DNA of 64,000 nt from a virus: IMG/VR virus record IMGVR_UViG_3300023301_001182, positions 1 to 64,000 of that record, one strand, 5' to 3'. The position numbers and the translations under genes were made by a program. Below are positions 13,007-63,549 of this stretch, in pieces; the first letter of the stretch is position 1; the number at the start of each line of letters is the position of its first letter. The notes under the pieces are model-generated. The model searched no databases. It was not told the origin of the DNA and saw only the letters and a list, made by a program, of their open reading frames with translations.

Positions 13007-13579
13007 ATGGCATTTGTATATCAACATATAAGATTGGACAATAATGAGGTTTTTTATATAGGAATAGGTATTAATAAATATAGACCTCTTAGTAAATATA
13101 GAAGAAATAAGTACTGGCATAATATAGTAAATAAATGTGGGTATAAATCAGAAATTATTTATAATAATTTAACTTGGAAAGATGCAATAGAGTTTGAAAA
13201 GTTTTTAATTAAATTATATGGTAGAAAAGATCTAGGGTAAGGTACATTATCTAATATGACAGATGGTGGTGAGGGTAGTATAAATAGAAAACAAACACAA
13301 CTAGCTAAAGATAAGATAAGTATGGCTAATAAAGGTAATGTATCTGCTAGAAAAGGAATTAAATTAAGTAAAGAGATTATTGATAAGATGTCAAATACTA
13401 AAACAGGTAAACCCAATTTAAAAATTAGAAAAGTTATTATAGATACTAAAACTAATAAATTGTATAGTGGGGTAAAAGAAGCTCATAAAGATTTCCCTGA
13501 ATATTCATTATCTACATTATATTCGTATTTAAATGGTAATAAAAAAAATAGAAGTTCTTTATTGACTTATACTCTATAA
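13007..13579 (+). pseudogene. GIY-YIG homing endonuclease interrupted by an in-frame TAA
   Basis: The first half (13007-13240, 77 codons) reads VYQHIRLDNNEVFYIGIG ... EFEKFLIKLYGRKDLG and then hits TAA at 13238-13240. The same frame continues without a shift as GTLSNMTDGGEGSINRKQ and on to TAA at 13577-13579. The intact paralogue at 5857 has GRRDLGTGYLCNMTDGGEG at this point, so the stop replaces one residue of a conserved motif. The second half carries NUMOD3-like (KDKISMANKGN) and NUMOD1-like (TKTNKLYSGVKEAHKDF) segments instead of AP2. One point change would restore the gene, so the inactivation looks recent. A separate reinitiated product from the ATG at 13256 is possible but would lack most of the catalytic domain. 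Confidence 0.8.
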
Positions 13580-15327: not shown

Positions 15328-17138
15328 TGAAACAAGATTTAATTAGCCAATTCTCATTACCTCCATATATAAAAGGTAAAAGCTTTTCAGAGGCAAGTAA
15401 AGCTATTGAAAATAAATTCAAGGACAGAAATGATAATGCTGCAAAGGAAACTAAAAATGCTTTGTTGGAAAGATTATCTCAAGCTCAAGAATTTGTTAAG
15501 ATGCAAGAATCTGTAAAGAATGAATCTCAACAAATTCCTGACCAAATGGATGGTCAAGTTCCTGAAGGTATGGAAGAGTATATGGCACAACAAGGTGGTC
15601 AACCACAACAAGAGATTCCTATGCAACCCCAACAAGGTATGCAACCTCAGCAAGGACAACCAGCAGATCCAAATGTAGCTGCTTATGGTGGACTATTTGG
15701 TAAACAGAATAAATATAATGTAGGTGGTTCTATGGGACAAGCTGTTACAGGTATACCAACACAACAAATAGGAGTTAACACAGTTCCTGGTGGAGGTATA
15801 GACCCTACATTAGCTGCTGGAGCACCAATGGGTGTTGAAGTCCCTGGTGGAGGAGGTGGTGCAAGTGCTGCTGGAACTGCTGGAACTGCTGGAACTGCTG
15901 GAGCTGCTGGAACTGCATTAGAGTTAGGAAAAACTGCTTTTGGTCCTACAGGAATAGATATGTCAGGAGCACAAAAAGCACCAGAAACACAAAGTAAAGG
16001 TATGGGAGCTGCTAGTAGTGCTATAAAAGGTGCAGGAGCAGGTGCTGCTTTTGGGCCTATTGGAATGGGAGTAGGCGCAGTAATAGGTGGAGCTGCTGGA
16101 TTTATTGGTGCAGGTAAAGCCCAAAAAGAAGCTAATGAGGCTAGAAATAATTATACATATACTCAAAACTCTGATATAAGACAAAGTGATTTTGCTATGG
16201 GTGGTAAAATGAATAAATATGGTGATGGTGGTAGACCTTTTCAAAGAGATCCTAATGCTCCTAATTATAGTGATTTAAGTAAACCTTTAGATAGAAATAT
16301 AAATCCTGGAGCACCATCATTAACTAGTCCGTCTATATATGGTCAAGCACCTAAAAATATGGGTAATTATGCTGAAAGAACAGCACCTGATACAAGTAAT
16401 TTAGATTTTGGTAGTAAAAATCCTACTAATCCTAATTTTGATAATGGTACAGTAGCAGGTAGAGGTTTAGATTGGTTAGGTAAAAATGCAGGTAATATAG
16501 CACAATATGCTCCTGTTGCAGGTAATCTTATGTCATTAAAGAATTTAAAACAAGGAGCTACTGAAAGAGGTAGTAGAGTAGATAATGTATATCAACCACA
16601 ATTATATGATGAAGCACGTCTACAAAATATATTAGGTCAAAGAAATACTGAAAGAGCTCTTACAGAAGCATCTGGAGGTGATTTAGGAGCATTAAGAAGT
16701 AATTTAGTTGCAAGTGGCGCAGGTAAGACAAAGGCTCAATCTGAAGCTATGGCACAAGCTGATTCAGTTAATAGAGGTGAAAAAGGTAAACAGTTTCAAT
16801 CTGAAGTAGCTAGAGATAGAACTAATATTCAATTAGATCAAAATTTCTTAGAAAGAAAAGCTGCAGATAAAGGAGCATACGAAACTACTAAAGAAAACTT
16901 GAAAAGACAATTAGCTCAAGATGTTGGTGCTATTGGTAAAGAAGAAGTTGATAAAAAGTTAGTTAAAGAGATGTTTGGTTATACATGGAATGGTAAATAT
17001 TGGGTAGATGATGAAGGTAATACTTATTCAAATAAAGATGTTAATACTAAACTTAAAACTGAAAAAGAAACTAAATCAGAGAAAGATAAGAAAGATTATG
17101 AAGACTATCTTACTTATAAAAAATCTAAAAAAGAATAA
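15327..17138 (+). CDS. Gly/Ala-rich ejection (cargo) protein
   Basis: A 603-residue protein. The N-terminus is a coiled coil (ASKAIENKFKDRNDNAAKET), followed by a Gln/Pro/Gly-rich linker and an Ala-Gly-Thr tandem repeat (15870-15914). A strongly hydrophobic Gly/Ala segment occupies about residues 231-263 (GAGAGAAFGPIGMGVGAVIG), of the type that inserts into membranes. The C-terminal half is charged, with long helices (DQNFLERKAADKGAYETTKE). This mix of a disordered linker, an amphipathic Gly zipper and helices is typical of podovirus internal or ejection proteins that form a channel through the envelope. It sits between two other cargo genes with one- and two-base spacing. Confidence 0.68.
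   Translation: MKQDLISQFSLPPYIKGKSFSEASKAIENKFKDRNDNAAKETKNALLERLSQAQEFVKMQESVKNESQQIPDQMDGQVPEGMEEYMAQQGGQPQQEIPMQPQQGMQPQQGQPADPNVAAYGGLFGKQNKYNVGGSMGQAVTGIPTQQIGVNTVPGGGIDPTLAAGAPMGVEVPGGGGGASAAGTAGTAGTAGAAGTALELGKTAFGPTGIDMSGAQKAPETQSKGMGAASSAIKGAGAGAAFGPIGMGVGAVIGGAAGFIGAGKAQKEANEARNNYTYTQNSDIRQSDFAMGGKMNKYGDGGRPFQRDPNAPNYSDLSKPLDRNINPGAPSLTSPSIYGQAPKNMGNYAERTAPDTSNLDFGSKNPTNPNFDNGTVAGRGLDWLGKNAGNIAQYAPVAGNLMSLKNLKQGATERGSRVDNVYQPQLYDEARLQNILGQRNTERALTEASGGDLGALRSNLVASGAGKTKAQSEAMAQADSVNRGEKGKQFQSEVARDRTNIQLDQNFLERKAADKGAYETTKENLKRQLAQDVGAIGKEEVDKKLVKEMFGYTWNGKYWVDDEGNTYSNKDVNTKLKTEKETKSEKDKKDYEDYLTYKKSKKE
15870..15914 (+). repeat. 9-bp in-frame tandem repeat (Ala-Gly-Thr)
   Basis: Five copies of the 9-mer GCTGGAACT occur in tandem, the fourth with GCT in place of ACT. 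They encode Ala-Gly-Thr repeats in the linker of the ejection protein. Such repeats can change copy number by slippage, so linker length may vary between isolates. Confidence 0.9.
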
Positions 17139-57895: not shown

Positions 57896-58225
57896 TTATT
57901 CTTCTTTTGTAAAGTTTTTATCTTTAAACCTATCATCTAGGTCTTTTCTAAATAAATACATATAAGATAAGAACATTGCATTACACATTATATGTCCTAC
58001 GTGGTCTAAACCACTTTCCTTATCTTTATCTACTCCATCTGAAAAGGAATTTATATGTCGTTGCATGCTATCTAAAGTTTCAGAATATTTTAGACCTTTT
58101 CTCCAATTATGGTCATCATATTTTTTAGCACCAAACATTAGTACTCTAACTAAAGGTTCTAATGCTTTCCAACTAACTAACCCCCATCTTAATTTCCCTT
58201 CATTCTTTCTTTCTCCTAATTCCAT
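57896..58225 (-). CDS. dATP/dGTP diphosphohydrolase N-terminal-like protein (DUF5664)
   Basis: A 109-residue protein. KNEGKLRWGLVSWKALEPLV, RVLMFGAKKYDDHNWRKGLK and LDHVGHIMCNAMFLSYMY follow the 'yd.lPfeaLe.va.v..fGa.KYg..NW' signature of the phage dATP/dGTP diphosphohydrolase N-terminal family. It is a MazG-like helical fold that binds nucleotides. It would hydrolyse purine dNTPs or regulate the pool. It lies two bases after the helicase stop. Confidence 0.74.
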   Translation of the reverse strand: MELGERKNEGKLRWGLVSWKALEPLVRVLMFGAKKYDDHNWRKGLKYSETLDSMQRHINSFSDGVDKDKESGLDHVGHIMCNAMFLSYMYLFRKDLDDRFKDKNFTKEE

Positions 58226-58227
58226 AT

Positions 58228-59163
58228 TTACCTTCCTGTTGTAGACTCAATGAAATTATAAACCTCTTTTATGTTAGCATTATCATAAGGTAAAGGTAGT
58301 TCTCTAAAAAAGTTTACAGCTCCATCAAAGAATAGTGGACAAACTGTGCCACCACCACCACTTCTACCACCAAGTATTTCTAAAAACCTTATATTATCTC
58401 TAAAAAAGGTTATATCATATCCTTGGTACTCTCTTATCTCGTGTCTAAACGGACTAAATAGTCCTATTATAACATTAGCATCCCGTTGAGTTAATTTGCA
58501 ATCGCCAAGACCATCTAATGAAGGTTTTAATCGACCTACCTTCATATTCTCGACTGATTCTTGTGCACTTGCTTGTTGTTGAATAACAACTGGAATGTAG
58601 TTATATTTATTCCTGAGTCTTAAAAGATAATCTGAAGACAATTTAACAATAGAAGCATGTAAGCTCATTTTGTGTCCATTTTCTTCTTCTGTAGAAATTA
58701 AACCTACATGGTCAATAAAGACCATAACATACTCTTCTGGATCATTAGGTTCATAATAATCATCAATCTCTGTTAATGTACCTTTGATATTGATAGTTTT
58801 TTTGTACTGTGTCCCATTGGCTTGTGCATAGGAACGGACAAATTTATAAATACCTGTAGGATTTCTAATATCATCAATGAACTCTACTATTTCTTCAATC
58901 TTCTTGAAATATGGTTCATATTTTGCTATTAACTCTAAAATTTTAATATCTAATATTTTATCTGCTTTAGTACTTCTAAGGTCAGTAGGAGGAATTCTTA
59001 CCCCTTCTTTAACATATATAATGTTAGAGAATGCTGATAACATTTTCTCCTCCTTAGACATCTCTAAAGTAAAATAAAATATCTTCAATCTAATGTTTAA
59101 AGATTTATCAATTACTTGTTGAATAGTATTATACAAAAATAGCCAATCAGCTATTTGAGTTTT
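58228..59163 (-). CDS. DnaB-type replicative helicase, 3' exon
   Basis: This codes for 311 residues of a RecA-fold helicase. It starts in the middle of Walker A at Lys-Thr (KTQIADWLFLYNTIQ). It continues with IFYFTLEMSKEEK, Walker B YVMVFIDHVGLIST, VIQQQASAQESVENMKVG and LGDCKLTQRDANVIIGLFSP, the usual order in phage DnaB-like helicases. Read alone it would need a TTG at 59166 and would lack the first part of the P-loop, so it cannot work without the 5' part at 62774-62938. Joined to the 5' exon, plus a proposed Lys-Val-Gly microexon, it gives a 369-residue helicase. Confidence 0.82.
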   Translation of the reverse strand, partial: KTQIADWLFLYNTIQQVIDKSLNIRLKIFYFTLEMSKEEKMLSAFSNIIYVKEGVRIPPTDLRSTKADKILDIKILELIAKYEPYFKKIEEIVEFIDDIRNPTGIYKFVRSYAQANGTQYKKTINIKGTLTEIDDYYEPNDPEEYVMVFIDHVGLISTEEENGHKMSLHASIVKLSSDYLLRLRNKYNYIPVVIQQQASAQESVENMKVGRLKPSLDGLGDCKLTQRDANVIIGLFSPFRHEIREYQGYDITFFRDNIRFLEILGGRSGGGGTVCPLFFDGAVNFFRELPLPYDNANIKEVYNFIESTTGR

Positions 59164-59177
59164 CAATTTTGTTATTT

Positions 59178-59645
59178 CTAACGATTACTAAAATATTTCT
59201 TATTTTCAAAAAATTTTTTAAGTTCTATACCAAATTCATCAACTCCTCTACGTGGAGCATATAAACGCCAGTAACTTCCTGTGTAATTAGTAGTAGAATC
59301 TCTAACTCTATATACTTGTTTGTTTATATCATTACAAAACATACCAACTAAATTATCAAGTGACATTACAGTATTAAAAAACTCTTCATATGTGGCTTTA
59401 GGATAATAATTTAAACAGATCCTGTATAAATCTCCCATAGATCTATTGCAATCCTTTCCACATTGTTTTCTGTTACTTTTAAGATGATATGTTTTATTAC
59501 TGTATATATATCTTGATAATAATAATCTTACAAAATTCTTAAAAACTTTAGAATAAATTTTATGTTTTGTAATGCCAGCTTTTGAAAGGTATAATATTCC
59601 TCTTCCTCTTAATTTTATTTCTATTTTATTAAATTTTTGTTTCAT
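59178..59645 (-). CDS. unknown basic protein, in the insert splitting the helicase
   Basis: A 155-residue basic protein (KQKFNKIEIKLRGRGILYLS, KVFKNFVRLLLSRYIYSN) with a Cys pair in KQCGKDCNRSMGD. It stops at TAG, 14 bases before the helicase 3' exon. Within the 3.6-kb insert that separates the two halves of the helicase, it is the last of five small genes. A basic, helical protein could bind nucleic acid. No family was recognised. Confidence 0.58.
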   Translation of the reverse strand: MKQKFNKIEIKLRGRGILYLSKAGITKHKIYSKVFKNFVRLLLSRYIYSNKTYHLKSNRKQCGKDCNRSMGDLYRICLNYYPKATYEEFFNTVMSLDNLVGMFCNDINKQVYRVRDSTTNYTGSYWRLYAPRRGVDEFGIELKKFFENKKYFSNR

Positions 59646-59663
59646 ATTTTAGAAATTTAGAAA

Positions 59664-59684
59664 GTTAAGTCATTTCTACTTAAC
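59664..59684 (-). repeat. short perfect inverted repeat between insert genes
   Basis: GTTAAGT (59664-59670) and ACTTAAC (59678-59684) form a 7-bp stem with a 7-base loop, right after the stop of the 134-residue gene, followed by a T-rich stretch. It could be a weak terminator or part of an RNA fold in the insert. Confidence 0.5.
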
Positions 59685-59685
59685 T

Positions 59686-60090
59686 CTATAATTTAATATC
59701 AATTTTTAATGAATCAAATAGTTTATCAATATAAGCAGCATCATATTTAGTATCCTTTGTACTTCTACCATAGTTAAATGTAACAGAATTTACATGACCT
59801 GGTATAATTTTACTAGCCCATATAGATATAGATGGCTTTTGACATTTCTCATAAAAGCTATAAAATATTACTTTATTAATACCACCACATACTCTTGCTC
59901 TGAATTTAGTTTCATATAAAGCTTGTAATACCATCTTTTCAGTTGCTCCTTTTTGTTTATAATATTTAAACAAATCATCAAAGCTTCTTCTATCATAGAT
60001 CCCTTTGTCTTTTTTAAATAGAGTACTTCTAAAATACCTCTTATGATTTACTTTATTTAATAAATCTTTTTTTAACTCCTTTAAATTCAT
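59686..60090 (-). CDS. unknown basic protein, in the insert splitting the helicase
   Basis: A 134-residue basic protein (LKELKKDLLNKVNHKRYFRS, RSFDDLFKYYKQKGATEKM). Motifs ARVCGGINKVIFYSFYEKCQ and GRSTKDTKYDAAYIDKLFDS are not ones I recognise. It lies in the small-gene set inside the helicase insert. The 44-base gap before it (60091-60134) holds a GATAGTCCG string that resembles a group I intron S element. Confidence 0.58.
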   Translation of the reverse strand: MNLKELKKDLLNKVNHKRYFRSTLFKKDKGIYDRRSFDDLFKYYKQKGATEKMVLQALYETKFRARVCGGINKVIFYSFYEKCQKPSISIWASKIIPGHVNSVTFNYGRSTKDTKYDAAYIDKLFDSLKIDIKL

Positions 60091-60134
60091 CTTTAATTAA
60101 TTTTTATTTTTATAGTTCGGACTATCTCATCAAC

Positions 60135-60587
60135 CTATCTATGTATTACACATTTACAGTCATAATCATGATGTCCTTTTAATGCATCATTATAACATTC
60201 TGTACAACATTGTATACCTTCTGTTATAATTGTTGCAATATTATCACAATCTGTACATAGTATAGGTTGCCCATTGTTAGTCTCTACGTCCTTTTGAATT
60301 TTTGATATTGTATTATCTATAGTTGATTGAAATCTATCATCACAACTATATCCAGCTTTATAATAAGCTAAACCTTTCATAATATTTTCAATATTTCTTT
60401 TATTCAACTGTGACACGGGATTGCCTTCTTTTTTTTCAGTTTCTACACCGTTTTGTAAAGCAAGTCTAACTCCTACTGAAACTCCTAGTTTATAATCATC
60501 CCACCATTTAGGACTTCCTAAAAATTTAGTTAATCGTTTTACTTCTTTCTCAAGTGATAGCATAGGATTGCTTTCTGTTTTTTCCAT
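60135..60587 (-). CDS. small zinc-finger-like protein, in the insert
   Basis: A 150-residue protein. The C-terminal third has a Cys cluster CTDCDNIATIITEGIQCCTE followed by CYND and CKC (C-x2-C, CC-x2-C), plus His residues (KGHHDYDCKCVIHR), which looks like a zinc-binding domain. The N-terminal part is helical and charged. It overlaps its upstream neighbour by one base. Function unknown. Confidence 0.58.
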   Translation of the reverse strand: MEKTESNPMLSLEKEVKRLTKFLGSPKWWDDYKLGVSVGVRLALQNGVETEKKEGNPVSQLNKRNIENIMKGLAYYKAGYSCDDRFQSTIDNTISKIQKDVETNNGQPILCTDCDNIATIITEGIQCCTECYNDALKGHHDYDCKCVIHR

Positions 60588-60898
60588 TATAAATCATCTC
60601 TAGTTAAGTTCTTAATATACATCTGTAAATCTCCATTAGGATAACCTACCCTTCTTGCAAAGGTATGTTTGTATTCAAATCCTAATGTTTTTAGATTGGA
60701 TCTTAATAAGTGCTCATTTGGAGATACTATTACAAAGACAGCTGTCTGGCCTCTACCATATGTATAATCTACTTCTTTATTAATAAGCATTTCCATAGTA
60801 AGCCGTTTTAACTTAGCTTTAAATTCATCTAAAGTTGTGTCATCTCCTACATTATTTAATTGACATAATGCACAGCATGCTGTTGTTGTTTTTTCCAT
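60587..60898 (-). CDS. small unknown protein, in the insert
   Basis: A 103-residue protein. The start MEKTTTACCALCQLNNVG has three cysteines close together. LTMEMLINKEVDYTYGRGQT and VFVIVSPNEHLLRSNLKTLG follow. It overlaps the next gene by one base, and both begin MEKT. Function unknown. Confidence 0.58.
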   Translation of the reverse strand: MEKTTTACCALCQLNNVGDDTTLDEFKAKLKRLTMEMLINKEVDYTYGRGQTAVFVIVSPNEHLLRSNLKTLGFEYKHTFARRVGYPNGDLQMYIKNLTRDDL

Positions 60899-60929
60899 TA
60901 TAATGTTTTTTTAAAAAAGGGTTTCCCCG

Positions 60930-61451
60930 TTAGCTAATTATTTTTAACAAATACTTTTTTAACCAAGACTTAGAAGTAAATTCTCCAAGTTTAATTAATT
61001 GTTCAATTGTTAAAATTCCTTTTTTCTTTCTTTTTAATATTATTTCTTTTGCTATTCCATCTTGTTTAAATCTTGCAACATAGCCATCTCTATTTCTGAT
61101 TTGATATTTAGTAAAATATGTTGCAAAATATTGGAAGCCATAACCATAACCTGTTGGTATTGCTACACAAGATATTAATATAAAATATTTTGCTAAATTT
61201 TCAACATATAATTTGGATGTTACATTTATTGAAAATGTTACTTTCTGAGCTGCATGTAATACTTTAGCCACTCTTTCTATAGCTTTAGGTGTACACAGTG
61301 ATGCAAAACTTGATACTTGATCTAAGTAACAATGTTTACAATTACCAATTGCGTCTTGGTAAAAAATTGTACTATAATCTGAAAGATACACTTTATATAC
61401 ATCTGTGTCACACATATTTGGAATACAGTCTTCTAGTCTTATATTTATCAT
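60930..61451 (-). CDS. unknown protein, first gene of the insert set
   Basis: A 173-residue protein (VYKVYLSDYSTIFYQDAIGN, CKHCYLDQVSSFASLCTPKA) with a hydrophobic middle (LAKYFILISCVAIPTGYGYG) that is not a convincing membrane helix, and a basic C-terminus (LKKYLLKIIS). It is first in the set of five small genes between the two halves of the helicase. The 31-base gap after it contains GGGGAAACC. Function unknown. Confidence 0.58.
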   Translation of the reverse strand: MINIRLEDCIPNMCDTDVYKVYLSDYSTIFYQDAIGNCKHCYLDQVSSFASLCTPKAIERVAKVLHAAQKVTFSINVTSKLYVENLAKYFILISCVAIPTGYGYGFQYFATYFTKYQIRNRDGYVARFKQDGIAKEIILKRKKKGILTIEQLIKLGEFTSKSWLKKYLLKIIS

Positions 61452-61523
61452 TTTTTCTTAATTAACCCCCATTTCTGGGATTCTGAGTTCAATTACATAT
61501 TACTATGCAAAGGGGCAAAATCT

Positions 61524-61532
61524 ACCTACTTT
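61524..61532 (-). other. proposed 9-nt microexon (Lys-Val-Gly) of the split helicase
   Basis: The minus strand reads AAAGTAGGT, preceded by a G (61533) and ending in T. This fits the group I rule (an intron ends in G, the 5' exon ends in U). Placed between the 5' exon (ends GCG AAT AGT, Ala-Asn-Ser) and the 3' exon (begins AAA ACT CAA, Lys-Thr-Gln), it makes ANSKVGKTQ, a proper Walker A. Direct joining of the two known exons gives ANSKTQ, which lacks exactly these three residues. No transcript evidence is available, and a chance 9-mer match cannot be excluded. Confidence 0.35.
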
Positions 61533-61920
61533 CGTTTATATTCCACATAAGACGTAACTCTTATATGCGTTTATGATAAATAGTATATATGGTAGGTCTA
61601 TCCTCAATAACTTTTAAGATATTGGTTATTTTCCACGAGTACTGTACCTGCTTATACTTCTTAATACTATTTACTTTAACTGCTATATATTTCTATATAG
61701 ACTGGACTATATCTTCATCTACTTGAGATGGCTTCCATTTCCAATACCATTAACTTGTATTGTACGTGCTCTATTGCACTAGTCTCTGAACGTTACTATT
61801 TCTAGTCTTCGCTGCTGATTGTCTTATATAAAAAAGACACTATATTAGTGTCTTAATTATACTTAGAGTTTCCAGCAATTAAAAAGCTAATCATCTAGAT
61901 GTCACCATCTAGCGTAGCAA

Positions 61921-62682
61921 TTAAATTGTTATTAATAAATATTGTTTTTTAAATTTTTGTTGTACTTTTATTGCATAACTTATACTAGGTCTGTGTGTTT
62001 TAAAATATTCAGCACATTCTTTTAAAGAATTAAATTCCATAATTAATTCTCTTGTACTATAATCTAATACTTGGACTTTCTTATATAAATATTCCATATT
62101 TTTAGTATCTTTTTTATAAGGAGATAATATTTCTTTATAATCATATGACCATAAATAATTACCTGCTTTTTTATAAGTACCATTAATATATCTACATATA
62201 GATGATTTAGAAATATCACACTCAGATGAAGCTTCATTAAGGCTATTATATTTACATATATATTCTCCATTTAAAGAGTACTTATATATAACTTTAGTAG
62301 CTAATATTATTTCACCTATTTTAATTTTGTATTTCCTTGTATTAGATTGTTTAAGTCTAGACTCTTTAGGAAGGATATTTCTATCTACTTCTAAAGTAAT
62401 ATTATATAAAGGTTTTAATATATCTATATAAAATTGTTCTCTACTTATTAACTTATTTTCTTCACATTTTTCTAATATATAAAAATTAAAGTCATTCTCT
62501 GTATTATTATTCCAAGAATTTTGTAATAATATATTACAATGCTTTAATTTTTTTAATGTATAAAAATGATTATATAACCTAGTTCTAATGTTTTTAGAAC
62601 TACCTATATATTGTTTACCATTTTTAATATTTATTATGCAGTAAATACCACTGCAGTTATAATCTTTTGTTATTTTCTTCAT
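61921..62682 (-). CDS. intron-encoded GIY-YIG homing endonuclease
   Basis: A 253-residue protein. The catalytic domain (about 8-100) shows CSGIYCIINIKNGKQYIGSS with the GIY and YIG elements, IRTRLYNHFYTLKKLKHCN (Arg, His) and ISREQFYIDILKPLYNI (Glu). The C-terminal part has a NUMOD1-type helix-turn-helix (KYNSLNEASSECDISKSSIC) and a second one (LKECAEYFKTHRPSISYAIK). It would cut intronless helicase alleles. It lies in the 5' portion of the intron and has its own promoter. It differs in architecture from the tail-region GIY-YIG genes. Confidence 0.88.
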   Translation of the reverse strand: MKKITKDYNCSGIYCIINIKNGKQYIGSSKNIRTRLYNHFYTLKKLKHCNILLQNSWNNNTENDFNFYILEKCEENKLISREQFYIDILKPLYNITLEVDRNILPKESRLKQSNTRKYKIKIGEIILATKVIYKYSLNGEYICKYNSLNEASSECDISKSSICRYINGTYKKAGNYLWSYDYKEILSPYKKDTKNMEYLYKKVQVLDYSTRELIMEFNSLKECAEYFKTHRPSISYAIKVQQKFKKQYLLITI

Positions 62683-62698
62683 AATTTATATATTTATA

Positions 62699-62730
62699 CA
62701 AATATACGAAATTAAATTCAATAATCCTAA
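62699..62730 (-). promoter_or_regulatory. promoter for the intron GIY-YIG gene
   Basis: The minus strand reads TTAGGAT (62724-62730), 17 bp, TATATTTG (62699-62706). It matches the promoters at 4868-4899 and 51448-51479 in both elements and in spacing. The gene starts 17 bases downstream at 62682. Confidence 0.7.
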
Positions 62731-62773
62731 TTTATAACTGCTAATTTTATAACTTTATTTATTATAACTAATT

Positions 62774-62938
62774 ACTATTCGCTGTAATTAAATAATATTT
62801 ACCTTGCTCAATGCCAGGTAATTCATTTTCAAACCGAGGTAACCCCCATGGTATACAATTAATTTGCCCATTAAGTAACCTCTGTCTCTTTTCTATGATA
62901 TTGTCATAGACTCTTGTATATAAACTTGTTTCTTTCAT
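62774..62938 (-). CDS. DnaB-type replicative helicase, 5' exon
   Basis: This codes for 55 residues, MKETSLYTRVYDNIIEKRQR through PGIEQGKYYLITANS, the linker helix and the strand leading into Walker A of a phage DnaB-like helicase. I chose the ATG at 62938, two bases after the upstream gene's stop, over the earlier in-frame ATG at 62962, which would overlap that gene. Unspliced reading adds one Asn and stops at TAG (62768). The break lies exactly in the P-loop, and the rest of the helicase resumes 3.6 kb away at 59163. Confidence 0.8.
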
Positions 62939-62940
62939 AT

Positions 62941-63549
62941 TTAATTTAATTTTGAAGTCCATTCATCTCTACTAGGTAATCCTATCTCCTCTATATAAGC
63001 AGATAATCTGGATGACTCTTCACGATTGTTCTCTTGTTTAAATATAAAATAATCAGCACGTTGTAAGAATCTATAATCTCCATGTAAGCTGTCAATATAA
63101 ATATCAACTGCTTTTAGGATATCATCGAATGTATATTTAGAGTTTTCTTTCATCCATCTTGTAAGTTTAATTTCACATGACTTTGGACTACCCATAGAAC
63201 CAGCTTTTAACCCTTTCCATTTGTCTCTAAATAATTCAATTCTACCATCAATCTCTTGATTAATAGTTCTTTGTGATCTTTTAGTAGTCTTCTTAGAAGG
63301 CTCTAAAGCATCAGGTATTTCTACTGTTAAAAACTCTAATAGTTCTACAGATTTCTCCCTTAATATATATTTTGTCTTTTCTTCATCTGTTATAATTTTT
63401 ATTAGTTTTTCTCTTTGTAATTTTTGTAAGTCTATATTAGCTATATTAACTTCTTTCTCTTCAAATAAGTTATATAGAAATAAGAGATCTTCTACAGAAA
63501 TATTGAAATCATTTAGTACAGTAAAATTTAGTACTAAGTTTTTTCTCAT
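62941..63549 (-). CDS. candidate helicase loader / replication accessory protein
   Basis: A 202-residue protein. The N-terminal 75 residues look like a winged helix (VEDLLFLYNLFEEKEVNIAN, LQKLQREKLIKIITDEEKTK). The C-terminal half has FRDKWKGLKAGSMGSPKSCE, YTFDDILKAVDIYIDSLHGD and YRFLQRADYFIFKQENNREE. It lies directly upstream of the helicase exon. A winged helix plus an alpha-helical module next to a DnaB gene is a common arrangement for helicase loaders, but no loader family is recognised. Confidence 0.6.
   Translation of the reverse strand: MRKNLVLNFTVLNDFNISVEDLLFLYNLFEEKEVNIANIDLQKLQREKLIKIITDEEKTKYILREKSVELLEFLTVEIPDALEPSKKTTKRSQRTINQEIDGRIELFRDKWKGLKAGSMGSPKSCEIKLTRWMKENSKYTFDDILKAVDIYIDSLHGDYRFLQRADYFIFKQENNREESSRLSAYIEEIGLPSRDEWTSKLN

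Follow-up and report, generated by a model that had tools for sequence, protein, structure and literature searches.

A predicted nine-nucleotide exon between two different group I introns in the Walker A motif of a crAss-like phage replicative helicase

A DnaB-type helicase gene of a crAss-like phage was analysed in a window of 64,000 nucleotides, positions 1 to 64,000 of the IMG/VR record IMGVR_UViG_3300023301_001182 (92,163 bases). The gene lies on the minus strand and is split within the Walker A motif by an insert of 3,610 nt. It is very probable from comparison with relatives that two different group I introns, separated by 9 nt, break the P-loop codons, and that the 9-nt microexon between them, AAAGTAGGT, restores the reading ANSKVGKTQ. 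The evidence consists of the exon and intron anatomy, two ribozyme cores, empty insertion sites in relatives and the requirement for the three residues of the microexon. Splicing in infected cells would be expected to take place accurately, with the exon included.

Exon 1 ends at 62774 with GCGAATAGT (in its longer context ...ATTACAGCGAATAGT, ANS), after which the frame meets AAT and the stop codon TAG, and exon 3 starts at 59163 with AAAACTCAA (longer context AAAACTCAAATAGCTGATTGG, KTQ). The microexon AAAGTAGGT at 61532-61524 is preceded by G (61533) and has T as its last base. Exon 1, microexon and exon 3 join in frame into a protein of 369 residues reading ITANSKVGKTQIADW. With the microexon the joined protein matched Pfam DnaB_C with 33.5 bits (cutoff 27) and PHROG 19 with 57.5 bits, whereas without it there was no Pfam match and the PHROG 19 score dropped to 36.7 bits. 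Helicases of named crAss-like phages (e.g. crAss001, DAC15 and phi14:2) share 40-52% identity with exon 3, and several of them carry the annotation replicative DNA helicase. At the first P-loop glycine position, the window helicase and intronless relatives alike have Ala. The pattern G+AARGTNGGT has a single match in the insert, AAAGTAGGT, against 0.03 expected from dinucleotide shuffles. For any AARGTNGGN, 0.5 matches are expected by shuffling, so the window sequence alone is suggestive and not proof; the proof is comparative. A sequence-only reading of the window had placed Ala-Asn-Ser and Lys-Thr-Gln at the two exon ends and had proposed 61524-61532 as the sole spliceable Lys-Val-Gly stretch. 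Both the coordinates and the uniqueness of the stretch proved correct, and the reading also survived the alternative of an unspliced helicase elsewhere: a second, unbroken helicase was looked for across the whole record and was not found, the record containing a single copy.

A natural INTERMEDIATES comparison was done on 83 distinct loci with exon 1 (L numbers denote single loci), collected by scanning viral contigs with exon 3 and exon 1, by DNA-pattern scans and from two named phages; all are metagenomic except the named phages. The helicase is uninterrupted in 52 of the 83, and most of the nearer ones read ANSKVGKTQ or ANQKVGKTQ, which bears out the prediction that intronless relatives read SKVGKTQ. 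Intron 2 alone, directly after KVG or KIG, was found in 18 loci, the cultured Cellulophaga phage phi14:2 among them; in these the intron typically opens with 'agaatttgcccct' and closes with G before AAAAC. Both introns are present in nine loci, window included, and in all nine the homologous position holds an exon of 9 nt that follows a G and has U as its last base. This exon encodes KVG in eight loci and KIG in one. It reads AAAGTGGGT in L002, L004, L027, L030, L090 and L116, AAAGTTGGT in L020, and AAAATTGGT (KIG) in L021/L024. The third position of the Val codon varies (GTA, GTG, GTT) with the residue kept, and ATT occurs once. The uninterrupted gene of L072 reads GCGAATAGTAAAGTAGGTAAAACACAAATAGCTGATTGG, which differs by one base from what splicing of the window is predicted to give there. 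When intron 1 is omitted, two-intron loci align at the junction with relatives lacking intron 1, gap-free and with 86-94% identity over about 160 bases (window/L001, L030/L040, L090/L013 and L021/L078). L078 has, uninterrupted, the same KIG codons as the L021 microexon. The nine two-intron loci, the 18 with intron 2 alone and the empty sites thus support the proposal that two introns flank a 9-nt exon and would together restore ANSKVGKTQ.

Intron 1 follows the group I splice-site rule, as the U at the end of exon 1 pairs with G in P1 and the last intron base is G. In P1, the exon sequence GCGAAUAGU pairs with the internal guide sequence GCUACGC. A compensatory change was observed between AAUAGU with GCUA in the window and AACAGU with GCUG in L090 (guide GCUGCGC), which supports a 5' splice site after the serine codon. 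The catalytic core matched the Rfam group I model when the endonuclease open reading frame (ORF) was excluded from the searched stretch (Table 1), and an ORF-less copy of 302 nt in L002 matched RF00028 with 99.5 bits. The ORF of the window copy matched Pfam GIY-YIG (42.6 bits) and NUMOD1 (37.1 bits), and relatives of this endonuclease are found within introns of L004, L020, L027, L030 and L052. In L021, a short ORF with Cys-rich motifs (KCPKCNKEN) after the core replaces the GIY-YIG ORF.

Intron 2 is homologous to the single intron of the 18 relatives. Its splice sites have U61524 before the 5' site and G59164 at the 3' end. Rfam searches of the whole window and of 58200-63000 gave no group I match; this is explained by ORF insertions that interrupt the intron cores, and not by absence of the introns. 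The search with the group I model over 59164-61523, suggested earlier as a check, therefore fails on the sequence as it stands, and the core was instead demonstrated by covariation. A compact intron 2 at the same site in L013 matched RF00028 with 67.1 bits, the match beginning in the exon just before the KVG codons. In long copies, the core elements form islands between or inside ORFs. The covariation test used a composite of these islands from 12 relatives with P3, P4, P5, P6, P7 and P8 (P3/P7 pseudoknot), 33 pairs in all. Pairing was found in 97.0% of cells as compared to 85.5% after shuffling, and it fell to about 43% (at most 44%) when partners were slid by one column. Two-sided changes were seen in 15 of the 33 pairs, a result reached in 0 of 500 shuffles, and one P7 pair occurs as A-U, G-C and U-A. 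The islands were picked by motif from the known group I layout; the alignment consequently leans to that layout, but the choice leaves the two-sided changes unexplained. In most relatives, as judged by eye, a UUUU or UUU preceding the guide lies opposite the AAAA of exon 3 as P10. A second R-like motif, AAAACGGTGTAGAAACTG, lies at 60454 on the minus strand inside ORF3, 32 bases before the Q element, an unusual order.

A third insertion site was observed in four of the 83 loci (L032, L052, L127 and L143), five bases downstream of the intron 1 site, where it splits the Val-Gly codons into GT and AGG (or similar). The intron there is intron-2-like in L032 and intron-1-like in L052, with a GIY-YIG ORF 52% identical. 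In the L032 intron the bases ahead of the guide suit the downstream exon of the shifted site, with UCU opposite AGG by eye.

We infer that intron 2 arrived first, after Lys-Val-Gly, and that intron 1 was then added after Ala-Asn-Ser, nine bases upstream, which would have carved out the 9-nt exon. Each intron would be removed by its own ribozyme: the first attack, by guanosine, would fall after the U that closes exon 1 (or the microexon) and is held in P1, and the second, by the exon end so released, after the G that closes the intron. The introns may leave in either order; with intron 1 out first, the joined GCGAATAGT-AAAGTAGGT would act as the 5' exon of intron 2. The spliced product would encode ANSKVGKTQ, a complete Walker A motif.

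Several points weigh against this proposal. Splicing itself is deduced from DNA comparison, among loci that come from metagenomes save for the named phages. By eye, P10 of intron 1 is weak or absent, with at most two pairs in the window and none obvious in L002, and P1 of intron 2 has an internal mismatch in the window. Group I tandems around short exons can also skip the exon (PMC10136302; PMC11878797), and KVG may therefore be missing from some transcripts. It is possible, if rather doubtful, that the microexon is real and is both included and skipped, the skipped ANSKTQ form being a helicase dead in ATP binding that could dampen replication. Such a product is in frame, and both downstream exons begin with AAA, so that their first bases do not discriminate the two 3' splice sites. 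Twort orf142, with an exon of 23 nt, is a precedent (PMC10136302), and for one SIOphi gene roughly half of the transcripts show skipping (PMC11878797). However, the window introns differ in sequence and structure, which makes the joint-ribozyme route discussed in PMC10136302 less likely.

It is very unlikely that the insert is a single 3.6-kb intron, with exon 1 joined to exon 3 and the KVG codons a chance match. The direct ANS-KTQ join does stay in frame, and phages Twort and SIOphi show documented exon skipping in group I tandems (PMC10136302; PMC11878797), but two separate group I cores are present, the 9-nt exon is kept in nine lineages, relatives carry intron 2 alone after KVG, and a protein joined in this way is short of three P-loop residues and no longer matches Pfam DnaB_C. 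That the locus is a decaying pseudogene or an artefact of metagenomic assembly is hardly credible, given the identical architecture in nine distinct lineages from different assemblies, Val codons that differ at the third position with the amino acid kept, and an intact exon 3 frame in the only helicase of the record. A group II intron was set aside, as there is no GUGYG start and group I cores are present.

The nine two-intron loci require at least eight state changes on a tree of exon 3, and the resolved cases adjoin loci with intron 2 only; intron 1 has therefore been gained or lost many times. Of the 27 loci that carry intron 2, nine also have intron 1; of the roughly 50 that lack intron 2, none does (Fisher p ~3e-5, with 50 counted and relatedness ignored). 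The arrangement with intron 1 only was not seen in the collection scan, for which a narrow pattern was used and which is weak evidence alone. Based on this distribution and on the state changes, we tentatively suggest that intron 1 homes only into helicase genes already carrying intron 2, the GIY-YIG enzyme recognising the boundary between exon and intron 2. The same 9-nt exon would then have been made repeatedly by one selfish intron stacking on another.

Table 1. Exons, introns, core elements and ORFs of the helicase locus (positions in the window).
Feature	Positions	Strand	Description
Exon 1, DnaB-type helicase	62774..62938	-	55 codons, MKETSLYT...YLITANS; final base U; 5' exons of relatives are homologous
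Intron 1, group I	61533..62773	-	1241 nt; final base G; P1, Rfam Intron_gpI on core, empty sites
GIY-YIG + NUMOD1 homing endonuclease ORF	61921..62682	-	In intron 1, between 5' splice site and guide
Intron 1 catalytic core	61683..61917	-	P, Q, R, S elements; RF00028 80.6 bits, E 5.1e-21
Microexon	61524..61532	-	9 nt; AAAGTAGGT, Lys-Val-Gly of Walker A
Intron 2, group I	59164..61523	-	2360 nt; dispersed core, five ORFs; final base G
P3 5' strand	61484..61487	-	CUCA; pairs with UGGG after R element; 4/4 pairs change on both sides
ORF1	60930..61451	-	173 aa; relatives within intron in L001, L002, L004, L005, L007
P4 5' strand	60925..60930	-	ACGGGG; adjoins ORF1 stop; core island
ORF2	60587..60898	-	103 aa; in P5 loop; 55-66% identity in twelve other loci
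ORF3	60135..60587	-	150 aa; reads through Q and R elements
Q element (P4 3' strand)	60414..60422	-	AAUCCCGUG; core island within ORF3
R element (P7 5' strand)	60278..60287	-	GUAGAGACUA; core island within ORF3
P8 3' strand + S element	60119..60137	-	UAGGUUGAUGAGAUAGUCC; first three bases are ORF3 stop codon
ORF4	59686..60090	-	134 aa; P9 region; 31-52% identity in five intron-2 relatives
ORF5	59178..59645	-	155 aa; between P9 and 3' splice site; weak relatives inside and outside introns
Exon 3, helicase	58228..59163	-	KTQIADW... through stop; intact frame

The five ORFs of intron 2 occupy different loops; none of them matched Pfam, and the window copy has no recognisable endonuclease. The set of ORFs varies among relatives. 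Relatives of ORF1 are also found in L046, L047 and L059, where the helicase is uninterrupted, and the ORF2 relative of L026 is located outside the intron; for ORF3, no homologue was detected by tblastn among the collected loci. Intron 2 of L004 and L009 contains an ORF, immediately following the P7 5' strand and ahead of P3', in which a stretch resembling LAGLIDADG (IIGMVLGDSYIS) was noted by eye; this ORF is possibly the intron 2 endonuclease.

In phage phi14:2 (L148, NC_021806.1 12982-16707) intron 2 is present alone, 2.6 kb long and unannotated. The exon ends with VTANSKVG at 13149 and KSQ begins at 15766 (NC_021806), and between them lie, in order, AACGGGGAAA, AATCCCGTG, GTAGAGACTG and GAGACAGTCC. 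In GenBank, g024-g028 are called at this locus and the helicase begins only at 15865; exon 1 is within g024, the intron ORFs correspond to g025-g028, and g029 represents exon 3 in truncated form. Gene callers misread such intron-split helicase loci, phi14:2 being an example.

Short exons between group I introns have been described previously. In orf142 of phage Twort, two group IA2 introns enclose an exon of 23 nt and exon skipping occurs, and in the bacterium Coxiella an exon of 34 nt lies between group I introns (PMC10136302). The window shares with Twort orf142 a very short exon enclosed by adjacent group I introns in a phage gene; it differs in that the exon has 9 nt, lies in Walker A of a replicative helicase and recurs in nine lineages, and in that its two introns are not close copies of one another. 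The placozoan mitochondrial cox1 has a single-base micro exon between two group IB introns, and shares with the window the explanation by a second group I intron inserting beside an existing one and a conserved motif of G, exon and next intron (PMC5436844); it is mitochondrial and RNA-supported, whereas the window case is a phage exon predicted from DNA. For Bastillevirinae introns, PMC11878797 describes a small extra exon in rNDPL of phage phiNIT1 and exon skipping in SIOphi. Those phages also offer a small internal exon flanked by group I introns, and some of their introns, though few, contain several ORFs; their hosts are Bacillus, and the interrupted genes encode polymerase, reductase and terminase. 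Delta and Zeta crAss-like phages contain inteins and are dense in self-splicing introns; in that survey introns were found via endonuclease domains, and exons or microexons were not mentioned (PMC7886860). Intron 2 of the window, with no recognisable endonuclease, would escape such an approach.

In the open-access literature, nothing relevant was found for a phage "microexon" by that word, nor a nine-base exon in a phage P-loop recurring in nine lineages. As far as that literature shows, the microexon of the window is the shortest reported for a phage between two group I introns. The earlier remark that so tiny a phage exon would be remarkable holds for its length, unmatched among phages there, and less so for its kind, as very small exons were already known; the window case is a striking variant and not a new kind. 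The enzyme is essential for replication and the microexon falls in its most constrained motif, so the phage would be expected to rely on accurate inclusion. Loci without introns, with intron 2 alone and with both introns cover all the intermediate states and form a natural system in which to ask how a 9-nt exon is retained, and not skipped, by tandem ribozymes.

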